Shown here: one piece after another, positions 1,296 through 8,357 of the stretch
Numbering within the stretch: position 1 is the stretch's first letter
How the letters are laid out: each line of letters begins with the position of its first letter
Notes under the pieces: model-generated
What the model was told of the DNA's origin: nothing
Seen by the model: only the letters and a program-made list of their open reading frames with translations
The model's database searches: none
Position numbers and translations under genes: made by a program
NCBI GenBank assembly: GCA_018903055.1
Contig: JAHIPW010000165.1
Coordinates: 1-8,585, forward strand
Source: DRGV01 sp018903055 [NCBI: bacterium]
GTDB lineage: Bacteria > UBP18 > UBA7526
Length of the DNA stretch: 8,585 nucleotides
Direction: 5' to 3'

Positions 1296-1299
1296 CTCC
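1296..1299 (-). promoter_or_regulatory. Ribosome binding site of pilC
   Basis: GGAG on the minus strand lies six bases before the ATG at 1289. It decides the start against the upstream in-frame TTG at 1301, which has no Shine-Dalgarno match. Confidence 0.6.
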
Positions 1300-1310
1300 A
1301 AGGTAACCAG

Positions 1311-1341
1311 TAAAAAGTAGGAAAGTAAAAAAGTACGAAAG
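1311..1341. repeat. 16-bp direct repeat, TAAAAA-GTA-GAAAG type
   Basis: Two near-identical units, 15 bp at 1311-1325 and 16 bp at 1326-1341, each read TAAAAA(A)GTA(G/C)GAAAG. They lie just upstream of pilC. No function is apparent; this is one of several gene-gap repeats in the window with a period near 16 bp. Confidence 0.75.
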
Positions 1342-1349
1342 TAATAGAG

Positions 1350-1462
1350 TATCAGATCACCAGACTATCAGATGGAGAGGGACAGATATCAGAGGGTCAG
1401 ATTAAAAAAATTGAATCTGGTCTTCTGAATTCTCATTCTGTGTTCTGATATACTGATATTCT
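1350..1462 (+). repeat. Gene-free copy of the repeat arms that flank the four-helix-bundle gene
   Basis: Positions 1350-1403 match the reverse complement of 4526-4579, the arm just upstream of the four-helix-bundle gene, at 49 of 54 positions by hand alignment. After a 10-bp A-rich joint, positions 1414-1462 resemble the reverse complement of the downstream arm. That match includes the exact 19-bp word CTTCTGAATTCTCATTCTG (1422-1440 versus 4065-4083). The order arm A then arm B is kept, but about 430 bp holding the gene are absent and the orientation is opposite. It sits in the gap between pilB and pilC. It could be an empty site, a deletion derivative, or a shared low-complexity repeat family. 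The similarity itself is read directly from the sequence. Confidence 0.8.
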
Positions 1463-1496
1463 ATGGCTTTGCTGGTTAGTGTAAACATCTATTCTT

Positions 1497-3225: not shown

Positions 3226-3260
3226 CCCATTCTTTTTTACATTGAACATTCTTGCGAACA

Positions 3261-3304
3261 GTTAATATCAGTTAATAACAGTTAATAACGGTTAATAACG
3301 GTTG
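3261..3304. repeat. 10-bp tandem array upstream of pilB
   Basis: Four exact-length units start at 3261, 3271, 3281 and 3291: GTTAATATCA, GTTAATAACA, GTTAATAACG and GTTAATAACG, followed by a partial GTTG. The AT steps recur every 10 bp, close to one helical turn. The array lies about 50 to 95 bp upstream of the pilB start. This could produce curved DNA, a protein-binding array, or simply be a slippage-born repeat. A related word (CAGTTACTAA) occurs before obg at 8272. Confidence 0.85.
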
Positions 3305-3993: not shown

Positions 3994-4036
3994 AGTTGCC
4001 GTTATACGTTGATTGGTTGCGCAGCTCGTTTCGTAT

Positions 4037-4099
4037 TTTTTAGATTATCAGAACATCAGAGTATCAGAATGAGAATTCAGAAGGTCAGAATATCAGATT
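4037..4099 (-). repeat. ATCAGA-type repeat arm downstream of the four-helix-bundle gene (arm B)
   Basis: This stretch is built from repeated ATCAGA words (for example ATCAGAACATCAGAGTATCAGAAT on the plus strand, in part). It supplies the gene's stop codon, since the TGA at 4093-4095 lies inside AATCTGATATTCTG. The 19-bp word at 4065-4083 recurs exactly, inverted, at 1422-1440. Confidence 0.75.
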
Positions 4100-4524
4100 T
4101 TGCGAGACCCCTTTTTACCATAAGTATCTTTCTTCTCTGAGATAGTCTTGATCATGCCATTGATACCTCTTTTTATTTCCTCATATTCATCTATCATGTC
4201 TTGACTTTTACTATGTGATAGATATCCTTTATCTTCCATATCCCTAAGGTGATTCTGGGTTTCAGCTGCCTCTTTACGGGCAGTGAAGAATCCTTTCATC
4301 TTATCATTATAATAATAACTCTCGTTTCCCTCTGCGATGTTGTCTGCTACTGACTTTGATGAACGCTCTGCTTGCGACCTAAGTTTATATGTCTCATGGC
4401 GAGGTAGTCTTTTACCTATCTTGCAAATTTCCAGATGAAGTTTATGAGCCTTCTGCCATATCCATAATTTCTCATGGGCAGGTTTTATATTCTTCCATTC
4501 TGGTCTTCTATCTTCTTGCTCCAT
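4093..4524 (-). CDS. Four-helix-bundle protein, 23S rRNA intervening-sequence (S23/IVP) family
   Basis: Small all-helical protein of the family first found encoded in 23S rRNA intervening sequences and related in fold to Avd of diversity-generating retroelements; its biochemical role is unknown. With the ATG at 4524 the product is 143 residues. Family marks are LWIWQKAHKL (20-29), SVADNIAEG (58-66, the family's conserved NIAEG turn), the helix FFTARKEAAETQNHL (79-93) and a last helix through RGINGMIKTI. An ATG at 4557 would add 11 residues (MERVRYQRVRL), but these are encoded by the upstream repeat arm and have no ribosome-binding site. GAGGG lies eight bases before the chosen start. The last residues (about GSRKI) and the stop lie at or in the downstream arm. 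The gene separates proA from nadD and looks like an insertion into a conserved string. There is no reverse transcriptase or 23S rRNA here. Family call strong, function unknown. Confidence 0.88.
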   Translation of the reverse strand: MEQEDRRPEWKNIKPAHEKLWIWQKAHKLHLEICKIGKRLPRHETYKLRSQAERSSKSVADNIAEGNESYYYNDKMKGFFTARKEAAETQNHLRDMEDKGYLSHSKSQDMIDEYEEIKRGINGMIKTISEKKDTYGKKGSRKI

Positions 4525-4525
4525 A

Positions 4526-4579
4526 AGTCTGACCCTCTGGTATCTGACCCTCTCCATCTGATATTCTGGTAATCTGATA
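4526..4579 (-). repeat. ATCAGA-type repeat arm upstream of the four-helix-bundle gene (arm A)
   Basis: A 54-bp stretch containing two runs of TATCAGAT-like words and two GAGGGTCAGA words. It matches 1350-1403 in inverted orientation at 49 of 54 positions. It contains the probable ribosome-binding site of the downstream gene (GAGGG, 4533-4537). Confidence 0.8.
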
Positions 4580-4623
4580 TTCTAATTATTTCAGTTGCGC
4601 AACCGCAACCGATTGCCGCATAA

Positions 4624-5871
4624 CTACTCTCTAACCTGCCCATCTCCATAGACTAAGTACTTATAAGTGGTGAGTTCTTCTAAGCCCATGGGACCCCGGG
4701 CATGGAGCTTCTGGGTAGAGATCCCGATCTCTGCCCCCAGACCAAACTCCCCACCGTCATGGAGCCTGGTTGAGGCATTGACAAAGACCGCACTGGCATC
4801 GACCTCCTTCAAGAACCTCTCCGCCGCTTTCTTATTCTCGGTAATTATGGCCTCTGAATGATTTGAACCATACCTCGAGATATGGTCTAAGGCCTCCTTC
4901 AGACTATTAACTATTTTGATAGAGAGGATGAGATCCAGGTACTCTGTCTGCCAATCAATCTCTCTTGCTTCATTAATACCGGGAGCAATCCTTTTTGTCT
5001 TGGGACAACCCCTCACCTCTACCCCGGCCCCTTCCAACCTTTCAATCATCCGGGGCAGAAACCTCCTGGCAATACTCTTATGTACTAGAAGGGTCTCAAG
5101 GGCATTACATACCCCCGGTCTCTGGACCTTGGCATTATAGACTATCTCTTCCGCCATATTCAGATCAGCATCCCGGTCCACATAGATGTGACATAACCCC
5201 TTGGCATGGGCGATGACTGGGATAGTAGATTCTCTCCTCACCGTCCGGATGAGACCCTCCCCTCCCCGGGGGATGACGAGATCGATGTAGTCATCCAGTC
5301 TCAGTAATTCTCTTACTGCTTGACGAGAGGTAGTTTTAATTAGTTGAATAGCATCTTCCGGGAGGCCTTTAGTCTCTTCTAAAATCTTGACGATGGCAAG
5401 GTTGGAACTCTGGGCCTCGCTCCCTCCCTTCAGGATGACGGCATTCCCGCTCTTTAGGGCTAAAGCGCTGGCTTCTACCGTGACATTTGGCCGGGCCTCA
5501 TAGATCATGGCGATTACCCCAATGGGAACCCTCACCTTCTTTATTACTAAGCCATTGGGCCTTCTGGTGGTCTTCATTATTCTCCCCACAGGATCGGGAA
5601 GGGAGGCGACTTCCCTTAAGGATTTTGTCATATTCTCAATGCGTGAGGGAGTTAAGGTAAGGCGATCTATGAGGGCCCTGCTTAGACCTTTCTTCTTAGC
5701 GAGTTCAACGTCCCTTTCATTTGCTTTTAAAATCCCTTTCTTTCCCTTAGAAAGTCCCCTGGCCATATTTCGTAGAATGCTGTTTTTGGCAGAGGTAGAG
5801 AGTCCGGCCAATTCTTTCGAGGCCCTCTTCGCCCTCTTAGCCATGCTTATCATTTCATTCTTAATATCCAT
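4624..5871 (-). CDS. proA: Gamma-glutamyl phosphate reductase (glutamate-5-semialdehyde dehydrogenase)
   Basis: NADPH-dependent reduction of gamma-glutamyl phosphate to glutamate-5-semialdehyde, the second step of proline synthesis, taking the unstable product of ProB. The 415-residue product is full length for the family. The aldehyde-dehydrogenase-like catalytic cysteine is C255 in RPGVCNALETLLVH, with the nucleotide-binding region around YEARPNVT and LKSGNAVILKGG (about 124-150). The C-terminal signature is present as STRLHDGGEFGLGAEIGIST followed by KLHARGPMGLEELTTYKY in part. The ATG has AAAGGTG five bases upstream (5877-5883). It follows proB by 91 bp, a gap filled with repeats, so the two are probably co-transcribed but not translationally coupled. 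No odd residues seen. Confidence 0.97.
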   Translation of the reverse strand: MDIKNEMISMAKRAKRASKELAGLSTSAKNSILRNMARGLSKGKKGILKANERDVELAKKKGLSRALIDRLTLTPSRIENMTKSLREVASLPDPVGRIMKTTRRPNGLVIKKVRVPIGVIAMIYEARPNVTVEASALALKSGNAVILKGGSEAQSSNLAIVKILEETKGLPEDAIQLIKTTSRQAVRELLRLDDYIDLVIPRGGEGLIRTVRRESTIPVIAHAKGLCHIYVDRDADLNMAEEIVYNAKVQRPGVCNALETLLVHKSIARRFLPRMIERLEGAGVEVRGCPKTKRIAPGINEAREIDWQTEYLDLILSIKIVNSLKEALDHISRYGSNHSEAIITENKKAAERFLKEVDASAVFVNASTRLHDGGEFGLGAEIGISTQKLHARGPMGLEELTTYKYLVYGDGQVRE

Positions 5872-5904
5872 CTTAACACCTTTCAGGAGTTATTTATGCT
5901 GCAA

Positions 5905-5934
5905 GCTACAAGCCGCAAGCTTCAAGCTTGTAGC
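5905..5934. repeat. Inverted repeat GCTACAAG/CTTGTAGC between proB and proA
   Basis: Perfect 8-bp arms at 5905-5912 and 5927-5934 enclose 14 bp that themselves contain CAAGCTT words. On the minus strand no T-run follows, so it is not an intrinsic terminator. It could form a hairpin in the proBA transcript. Confidence 0.6.
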
Positions 5935-5958
5935 CTGAGGCCTGGAGCCTGAGGCCTG
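5933..5958. repeat. 12-bp direct repeat GCCTGAGGCCTG just after proB
   Basis: Exact copies at 5933-5944 and 5947-5958, separated by GA, four bases beyond the proB stop codon. Each copy contains the palindrome AGGCCT. Function unknown. Confidence 0.75.
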
Positions 5959-5962
5959 CATT

Positions 5963-7079: not shown

Positions 7080-7145
7080 CACAGATTATCACAGATTGAT
7101 TACAGATAGACACAGATCACAGATACTGGATCCTTGATACTGGAT
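7080..7145. repeat. ACAGAT words and GATACTGGAT direct repeat upstream of proB
   Basis: ACAGAT recurs at 7081, 7091, 7102, 7112 and 7119, mostly at 10-11 bp spacing. It is followed by the exact 10-mer GATACTGGAT at 7122-7131 and 7136-7145. The array starts next to the proB ribosome-binding site. Function unknown. Confidence 0.75.
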
Positions 7146-7170
7146 ACTCGATAGTTTAATTACTTACCTT

Positions 7171-8226: not shown

Positions 8227-8262
8227 ACTTTCTTCACGGATTAGCAAGGAAAAGAGTTAATG

Positions 8263-8357
8263 GTTACTAAACAGTTACTAACAGTTACAGCAACCGATAG
8301 TAACAGCGAAGCGTAGTAACCAATAGTAACAGTCCCGCATTGGCGGGACGTAGTAAC
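8263..8357. repeat. GTTACT/AGTAAC word cluster between rpmA and obg
   Basis: GTTAC(T/A) occurs at 8263, 8274 and 8284, and its complement (A)GTAAC at 8299, 8315, 8325 and 8352. The left and right halves could therefore pair in several registers. It fills most of the 156-bp gap. The left half resembles the GTTAATAACA array at 3261-3304. Confidence 0.75.
8332..8349. repeat. Hairpin GTCCCGC-ATTG-GCGGGAC
   Basis: Perfect 7-bp GC-rich arms (8332-8338 and 8343-8349) with a 4-base loop, 34 bp past the rpmA stop codon in the direction of transcription. No T-run follows on the minus strand, so a rho-independent terminator is not supported. It could act as an mRNA stability or processing hairpin, or be a small dispersed repeat. 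Confidence 0.6.

Follow-up and report, generated by a model that had tools for sequence, protein, structure and literature searches.

Hairpin-armed IVP genes and gene-free copies of their arms suggest an overlooked mobile gene-and-repeat pair

The gene of the IVP/S23 four-helix-bundle family in the window (the whole analysed stretch of 8,585 nucleotides) lies between two complementary arrays of a short repeated word, and the same arms stand joined without the gene elsewhere in the window and in its genome. Together with the arms found around most other IVP genes analysed, this suggests, from comparison of sequences, that hairpin-armed IVP cassettes are an overlooked mobile gene-and-repeat pair. 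Our preferred reading, to which we assign a probability of roughly 0.55, is that an IVP gene and its hairpin word would form a mobile pair with gene-free dependants, resembling REPIN-RAYT systems without the RAYT and akin to the intervening sequences (IVS) of rRNA; the movement and the binding that it involves are what we infer from the DNA. Such a pair joins the IVP/S23 proteins, which are found in rRNA intervening sequences and have no settled function, with heptameric intergenic repeats, which have no known cause. If IVPs recognise these words, their function and spread become testable in cultured cyanobacteria, and some bacterial intergenic repeats gain a candidate protein partner. The link between IVP and heptamers was not stated in the titles and abstract openings of the literature searched, with preprints and most subscription journals lying outside that search.

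The window gene and its arms

The gene, its arms and the enclosing repeat have the following limits in the window.

4093..4524, minus strand: IVP / S23 / four-helix-bundle gene, 143 aa, ATG at 4524, frame open to 4557
4041..4098, minus strand: downstream arm (arm B), TCTGAT-type units on the gene strand, spanning the stop codon
4526..4584, minus strand: upstream arm (arm A), ATCAGA-type units, complementary to arm B
4001..4024, no strand assigned: left side of the outermost inverted repeat, GTTATACG..GGTTGCGC, aligning with the right side and closing the outer stem in the fold
4594..4624, no strand assigned: right side of the outermost inverted repeat, from alignment with the left side and the fold

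In the profile search the gene matched PF05635 over its whole length (positions 1-106 of 106; E 4.3e-27, 94.9 bits, cut-off 33.8), and matched the bAvd profile PF22296 at E 5.8e-6, which is under that profile's cut-off. A solved relative is 2GSC (XCC0516; E 5.4e-4), whose source organism we take to be Xanthomonas campestris, the species whose GGGAATC repeats were described. Hereafter G000 is the window genome (1.085 Mb) and G003 its sister genome, L-numbers are loci and C-numbers contigs; relatives of the window gene are 54% identical in genome G005 and 58-59% in G003. The ATG at 4524 is the likely start codon because the longer frame extends into arm A, and the stop codon (4093-4095) falls within arm B. 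The two arms score 52 for complementarity, and the own partner ranks top of 57. A location of the gene inside rRNA was ruled out, since its neighbours are proA-like and nadD-like genes and the Rfam search of the window found no family at gathering score. The gene therefore does not stand inside a 23S rRNA gene as a 23S IVS does, and like the S23p gene of such an IVS it lies within a stem of terminal inverted repeats.

Gene-free hairpins in the window and in related genomes

The first-pass annotation held that the arms recur, joined without the gene, before pilC. The comparison bears this out: 49 of 54 positions agree between 1350-1403 and the reverse complement of 4526-4579, and 1422-1440 is a 19-mer that exactly matches the reverse complement of the sequence from 4065. 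When folded, the joined arms give a hairpin whose terminal loop is 10 nt long (-41.7 kcal/mol, z -4.2), and the search of the 1.085-Mb genome returned two matches at the pilC locus (E 1.1e-16 and 6.0e-7). The proposal that this locus is an empty site or a MITE-like product stands as regards a gene-free copy and falls as regards emptiness, the truly empty site being that of the relative G005. The gene-free repeats of the window are as follows.

1345..1464, plus strand: gene-free joined hairpin copy (MITE-like) between pilC and pilB, from genome search, alignment and fold
1299..1344, plus strand: outer repeat shell around the gene-free copy, left side, GTAACCAG / AAGTAGGAAAGTA
1465..1487, plus strand: outer shell, right side, TGGTTAGTGTAAAC
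3256..3303, no strand assigned: gene-free GTTAATA(T/A)CAG repeat, its word that of the flanks of a broken IVP gene (G000:C62), by eye
5897..5960, no strand assigned: gene-free palindromic repeat GCTACAAGC/GCCTGAGG, its word that of IVP arms on G000:C101, by eye
7080..7150, no strand assigned: gene-free repeats of the CACAGAT word and the GATACTGGATC word, score 40 to L024

At 7080..7150 the CACAGAT word is that found around PF13366 genes, and GATACTGGATC is that of the IVP gene on G000:C138. Other window gaps (8250-8350, 3256-3303) are filled by gene-free repeats of the AGTTACTAAC and GTTAATACAG types. Nesting was also seen: ATCAGA hairpins stand within GTAACCAG hairpins (L002, L003, L005 and window 1299-1487) and the L073 cassette within a CACAGAT hairpin, as though elements landed preferentially in other hairpins.

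Across G000, parts of the element match many places (E 6.7e-19 to 1.6e-4), which group into ten gene-free places besides the gene-bearing one (C77 twice, C135, C160:1337, C3, C25, C186, C144, C187 and C101). Most of the nine outside the window consist of two arms round a short spacer, with the same ends and in either direction; C25 is truncated at a contig end, and divergence is greater in C144, C187 and C101. G003 has 19 places covering at least 100 nt of the hairpin, and one G003 copy aligns over positions 404-587 of the query, outer shell included. From the loci of six genomes we gathered 19 distinct joined copies, of which 15 were aligned; the gene-free copies agree in arm order and ends. 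Four joined copies folded singly gave z values of -4.2 to -5.6. A compensatory change was found in only 1 of 35 pairs of the gene-free family, so that covariation did not provide proof of the structure, which counts against the preferred reading.

As with MITEs, these short copies have the ends of the gene-bearing copy; unlike MITEs, they have no known transposase and no demonstrated target-site duplication, none being seen when occupied and empty pilC-pilB gaps were compared by eye.

Repeat arrays of the intergenic DNA were compared with the arms of the window family's IVP genes. In 125 kb of G000 there are 40 arrays, of which 26 score at least 34 against some family IVP arm. As a null, equally many arms were drawn 300 times from other genomes, which gave a mean of 9.7 matching arrays and at most 20 (family arms being somewhat longer than null arms, mean 141 vs 129 nt). 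In 393 kb of G003 the count was 39 of 62 (68 arrays minus six that are IVP flanks; null mean 12.6, maximum 27). When 24 instead of 28 family arms were used, the counts were 22 of 40 for G000 (null mean 8.7, maximum 18) and 30 of 62 for G003 (null 11.7, maximum 25). These matches suggest that gene-free hairpins with the same words are non-autonomous relatives of the cassette.

Complementary arms around other IVP genes

G000 has eight PF05635 hits in seven genes, with five above the cut-off and two broken or partial. By eye, six of the seven have inverted short-tandem-repeat flanks on both sides, every word being different, and the seventh (C146), viewed on one side, has a repeat there also. For 57 distinct IVP genes with a near-full domain and both flanks, taken from 68 entries of the own genome and its relatives, the complement score of the own flanks averaged 44.1, compared with 20.1 (sd 5.0) for flanks of other genes, and the own partner came top of 57 in 36 cases.

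A broader sample consists of 80 relatives of one query IVP (the named loci, 61-71% identical, the query's own locus aside) from Acidobacteria, Nostocales, Hymenobacter, Verrucomicrobia, Planctomycetes, Chloroflexi, Nitrospirae, Desulfobacterota and others, going by record titles; the query had no match in any phage record. Two loci were skipped for short flanks, and 63 of the 78 tested score at least 30, a value reached by 2.7% of 6471 windows taken from these loci. Because the loci have one word in common, 46.5% of permuted pairs reach 30, and the own partner comes top in 8 alone.

When the samples were pooled, complementary arms (score at least 30) were present at 188 of 225 distinct IVP genes (43/56, 64/72 and 81/97 by sample), and permuted partners passed in 11%. 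The pool required a domain score of at least 40, a near-full domain, minimum flank lengths of 150 and 170 nt and no N run, and excluded loci repeating others and identical genes; in the sample containing the G005 and G003 relatives, genes had been ordered by how similar they are to the window gene. The remaining 37 genes score below 30, with wider windows rescuing 5, and this counts against the preferred reading. The best unit of the 188 armed genes is 7 in 84, 8 in ten and of another length in six, and 88 have no clear period by a strict measure. Most relatives' IVP genes are thus flanked by arms of various words with consistent boundaries, the opposite of the scattered tracts and flankless genes that would have spoken against the first-pass annotation. 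Although the thresholds of 30 and 34 were picked after the distributions had been viewed, the controls used identical thresholds. Most genomes are metagenome assemblies; the complete records of cyanobacterial plasmids (below) rule out an artefact of a single metagenome assembly.

That ordinary neighbouring genes are also armed was ruled out by a control with other open reading frames. A score of 34 is reached by 51 of 66 IVPs of the named loci, compared with 11 of 499 other ORFs and, at 80-200 aa, 4 of 206 other ORFs; in the stretches of G000 and G003 the figures are 5 of 6 IVPs and 18 of 452 other ORFs. By position, three of these 18 are PF13366 genes (GxxExxY, PDDEXK_3), presumably members of a nuclease superfamily, going by the Pfam name PDDEXK_3. 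In 21 of 24 PF13366 hits the arms averaged 40.0, against 23.2 when permuted, and the own partner came first in 9 of the 21, so a second, unrelated small gene family is present in the same repeat habitat. The PF13366 genes (L097-L120) mostly have CACGGAT/CACAGAT arms, and window 7080-7130 is a gene-free stretch of that word. GIY-YIG genes were rejected as equal passengers: 27 were tried, and 6 of the 21 with usable flanks score at least 33, two of the six with a REP-like palindrome. Small GIY-YIG genes stand between REP-like palindromes such as TGTCATTCCCGCGAAAGCGGGAATCCAG at L382 and L393. The presence of PF13366 and some GIY-YIG genes in repeat arms counts against the preferred reading.

The word in relation to the protein

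The arms of the named clade are mostly variants of one heptamer, GRANNYA (GGAGTCA, GAATTCA, GAAGCCA etc.). Tandem GRANNYA of at least two units occurs in both arms at 50 of 78 named loci and in either arm at 71 of 78; it is in the upstream arm at 60 of 78 and there on the opposite strand at 1 of 78, and on the opposite strand in both arms at 0 of 78. Among other IVPs it occurs in both arms at 4 of 153, one of which is the query's own copy. For armed pairs across genomes, word sharing was 1-3% below 45% protein identity, 4.6% at 45-50%, 6.2% at 50-55%, 33% at 55-60%, 62% at 60-70% and 87% above 70%; these pairs are not mutually independent, and of the 2541 at 55% identity or more, 2007 join two members of the named clade, and in 75 neither gene belongs to the named set.

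Outside the named set, the word is common (score at least 34) to 14 of 16 pairs at 66% identity or more and to 11 of 59 pairs at 55-66%; it differs in the other 48 of 59, which counts against the preferred reading. The overall rank correlation of word and IVP identity in the non-named pairs was set aside as evidence, being weak and within the permutation range (rho 0.065; permutation maximum 0.11). In the clade of the window gene, at 58-61% identity, the arm scores are 26 (G000/G003), 48 (G000/G005) and 37 (G003/G005), and by eye all three genes have ATCAG- or ATCGG-type words. Close relatives have a stable word; some clades retain it over long distances, and in others it has often changed at identities near 60%, as the sharing of 11/59 compared with 14/16 outside the named clade indicates.

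A forecast stated beforehand, that AAATCCG-type heptamers would be present at every relative sharing at least 55% identity with the L073 IVP, held in 8 of 9 cases, judged by cross-score and not by heptamer pattern, and with L414 (= L093) known in advance. In 386 genomes, eight relatives at 60-74% identity from eight other genomes have cross-scores of 42-81 to the L073 arms, one at 55% scores 34, and nineteen at 31-47% score 21-39; two of the eight, L411 (truncated where its contig ends) and L418, lack a good arm pair themselves. Of 31 records of cyanobacterial plasmids, 10 were analysed (H1, H3-H5, H7-H12), and each has an arm score of at least 36. Tandem GRANNYA was in both arms of 5 of 6 plasmid loci at 58-66% identity, the sixth, from Picosynechococcus, having GGAGATA units, and of 0 of 4 at 39.5-46%; the loci are not fully independent because L440 and L441 have neighbours in common, as do L442 and L448, and the gene of L448 was matched in two pieces.

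These results bear most directly on the alternative that the IVP gene is a passenger, the hairpins being made by host slippage, the cassette simply inserting into them or being retained there, and the match of word and protein coming from joint inheritance or transfer. It survives best among the alternatives, and we consider it unlikely. It would accommodate the PF13366 genes in similar arms, the nesting of repeats within each other, the word differences at 55-66% identity, and the excess of arrays over IVP genes (40 in 125 kb of G000, seven genes genome-wide), 14 of the 40 fitting no family IVP arm at 34. It is at odds with the word of the named clade, which is kept between phyla at 60-70% protein identity where neutral DNA should be unalignable, with the L073-clade word kept at 60-74%, and with the constancy of GRANNYA word and polarity while the unit number varies.

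Signs of movement, orientation and selection

The annotated view that the gene and its arms form one cassette agrees with the sharp limits in the comparable pairs. The loci L073 (G004) and L074 (G001), from two genera, match over 468 bp at 95.7%, the homology ends in the arms, the flanks are unrelated, and no further homology was found within about 900 nt of the cassette. L066 and L067, two sites in G004, match over 450 bp at 91%, also ending in the arms. The contents of the proA-nadD and pilB-pilC gaps vary among relatives, as the first-pass annotation would have them do. At proA-nadD, the gap of G000 contains an IVP with ATCAGA arms and that of G003 a 59%-identical IVP whose arms are of the ATCAGG/ATCGGG words; G001, G004 and G005 have gene-free repeats there, built of other words, and G002 a repeat and an N run. 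Separate insertions of the G000 and G003 IVPs seem likelier than descent, because the flanking DNA is 84% identical and the IVP-domain DNA 60%. Of the pilC-pilB gaps, that of G000 carries the ATCAGA hairpin, those of G001 and G002 carry other words, and that of G005 is empty. At one further gap, between homologous flanks, G004 and G001 each have an IVP, the two being 35% identical and differing in word. Overall, the first-pass interpretation is partly supported.

IVP genes are codirectional with agreeing neighbours in 130 of 139 cases (130 vs 9; three samples summed), compared with 174 of 209 for small ORFs generally, a set that includes IVPs and spurious frames. The gene-free ATCAGA copies, judged against codirectional neighbours, divide 6 vs 10, with three in other gaps. 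The bias of the genes, next to its absence in the gene-free copies, fits a gene that would be read from the host transcript and a hairpin that may insert in both directions. In 158 of 179 untied cases G exceeds C in the upstream arm, a fixed polarity for which purine loading of transcripts might be an alternative cause. In six close IVP pairs, of which three are formed by one set of three genes, dN/dS is 0.01-0.11; the close pair L069/L070, with dN 0.007 and dS 0, counts against the preferred reading.

Purifying selection in the close pairs and codirectional genes would also be expected if the IVP were a host-serving RNA-binding regulator of transcripts containing the hairpin word, its gene lying in its own target and rarely moving, and the TAACTGA repeats of Beggiatoaceae have, in the accessible text of PMC4679880, been proposed to affect translation. 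We hold this improbable, given that the same gaps carry other words or none in relatives, that cassettes occur in unrelated contexts at 91-96% identity, and that the gene-free copies have no orientation preference.

Avd-type proteins serve reverse transcriptases, the IVP has the weak bAvd match given above, and Y1_Tnp matches occur in 24 of 41 genomes and RVT_1 matches in 11 of 41, yet movement of the arms in trans by a conventional enzyme, either a Y1/HUH transposase (REPIN-RAYT) or a reverse transcriptase (with the IVP as Avd-like partner), is highly improbable and was rejected, since PF01797 (Y1) and PF00078 (reverse transcriptase), the two families searched, each had matches in 0 of the 6 window-family genomes (53-93% complete), all six with IVP matches.

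A possible mechanism

In the mobile-pair reading, the cassette measures about 0.45-0.6 kb, with the IVP gene set between a 5' and a 3' arm that are inverted arrays of a word of 7-9 bp. The gene stands mostly in operon-type gaps and codirectionally, and would be transcribed as part of the host transcript. An IVP oligomer may then recognise the hairpin of its cognate repeat, as RNA or as single-stranded DNA, and the bound hairpin, with or without the gene, could be copied by host replication and repair enzymes into another intergenic gap, at times into another repeat hairpin. Slippage and copying within the hairpin would renew the arms pairwise, so that complementarity persists while the unit number and, over longer times, the word drift along with the protein. 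The four-helix-bundle protein would fill the transposase's place in a REPIN-RAYT-like scheme, and the intervening sequences of 23S rRNA would be copies of such elements located in rRNA. To our knowledge, no catalytic motif is known in the IVP family.

More tentatively, and with less confidence than the reading itself, IVP genes and clade-specific words may constitute a separate and very widespread class of mobile hairpins with no transposase or reverse transcriptase of its own, in which each IVP would read one word and spread both forms of the hairpin through host enzymes, much heptameric intergenic DNA and the 23S intervening sequences possibly being products.

Comparison with known systems

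The IVS of the Coxiella burnetii 23S rRNA has a gene of the same protein family in the loop of a terminal-inverted-repeat stem. According to the accessible text of PMC4990558, its terminal repeats are 28 bp long, tandem GACAGAT heptamers stand just before the start codon in two or three units depending on the strain, and the authors name it a selfish element. Unlike it, the cassettes described here lie between protein genes, use many words and have scattered gene-free copies of the same words. The same authors deduce that S23p is unlikely to be produced and the gene dispensable, which contrasts with the purifying selection in close IVP pairs and counts against the preferred reading.

REPIN-RAYT systems (REPtrons) resemble the pair in having palindromic or hairpin intergenic repeats tied to specific protein genes and gene-free doublets as non-autonomous relatives, with co-evolution of repeat and protein being claimed (accessible text of PMC3116915 and PMC8266576). 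Here, too, gene-free hairpins with the same repeat occur in intergenic gaps, and the repeat co-varies with the protein clade in two clades and in close pairs, with words often differing at 55-66% identity elsewhere. The differences are that no Y1/HUH transposase was found in the genome family, that the protein is a four-helix bundle, and that the arms are tandem arrays of short units. To the Avd / bAvd proteins of diversity-generating retroelements there is distant profile similarity, the IVP falling under the bAvd cut-off; a reverse transcriptase match, nearby or in the genome, was absent from the window family.

Cyanobacterial STRRs are heptameric intergenic repeats with 7-bp tandem units. 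The TAACTGA repeats (PMC4679880) and the GGGAATC/GGGGAYT repeats of Xanthomonas and Nostoc (PMC4692102) are, in the accessible parts of these papers, likewise 7-bp, tandem and intergenic, as the arms are. An IVP link goes unmentioned in these parts, where the terms 'S23' and 'intervening' do not occur in either paper, nor 'four-helix' in PMC4692102. In the same text of PMC4692102 the Xanthomonas heptamers often stand as inverted pairs, and Nostoc 7120 has few inverted pairs and none on plasmids. It also gives 90% of the Xanthomonas heptamer repeats as lying between the same genes in two species, stabler than controls; because of this stability frequent movement in Xanthomonas is disfavoured, which counts against the preferred reading.

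IVP genes in particular settings

An Rfam search of 20 loci, mostly of genes without arms, gave three tRNAs and one group I intron, and no rRNA in these 20. At L223:946-1161 in genome G211 an IVP gene adjoins a group I intron (RF00028). Genome G013 (L044, L094, L095) has nineteen IVP-like hits, several of which are divergent pairs around a shared palindrome with a poly-A/T core, and complementary arms are absent in the tested copies (L044, L095). CRISPR operons on plasmids of Picosynechococcus 7003, Pseudanabaena galeata and Anabaena sp. 90 harbour armed IVP genes (L443, L444 and L446), which lie once between cmr2 and cmr3 and twice between cas6 and cas4.
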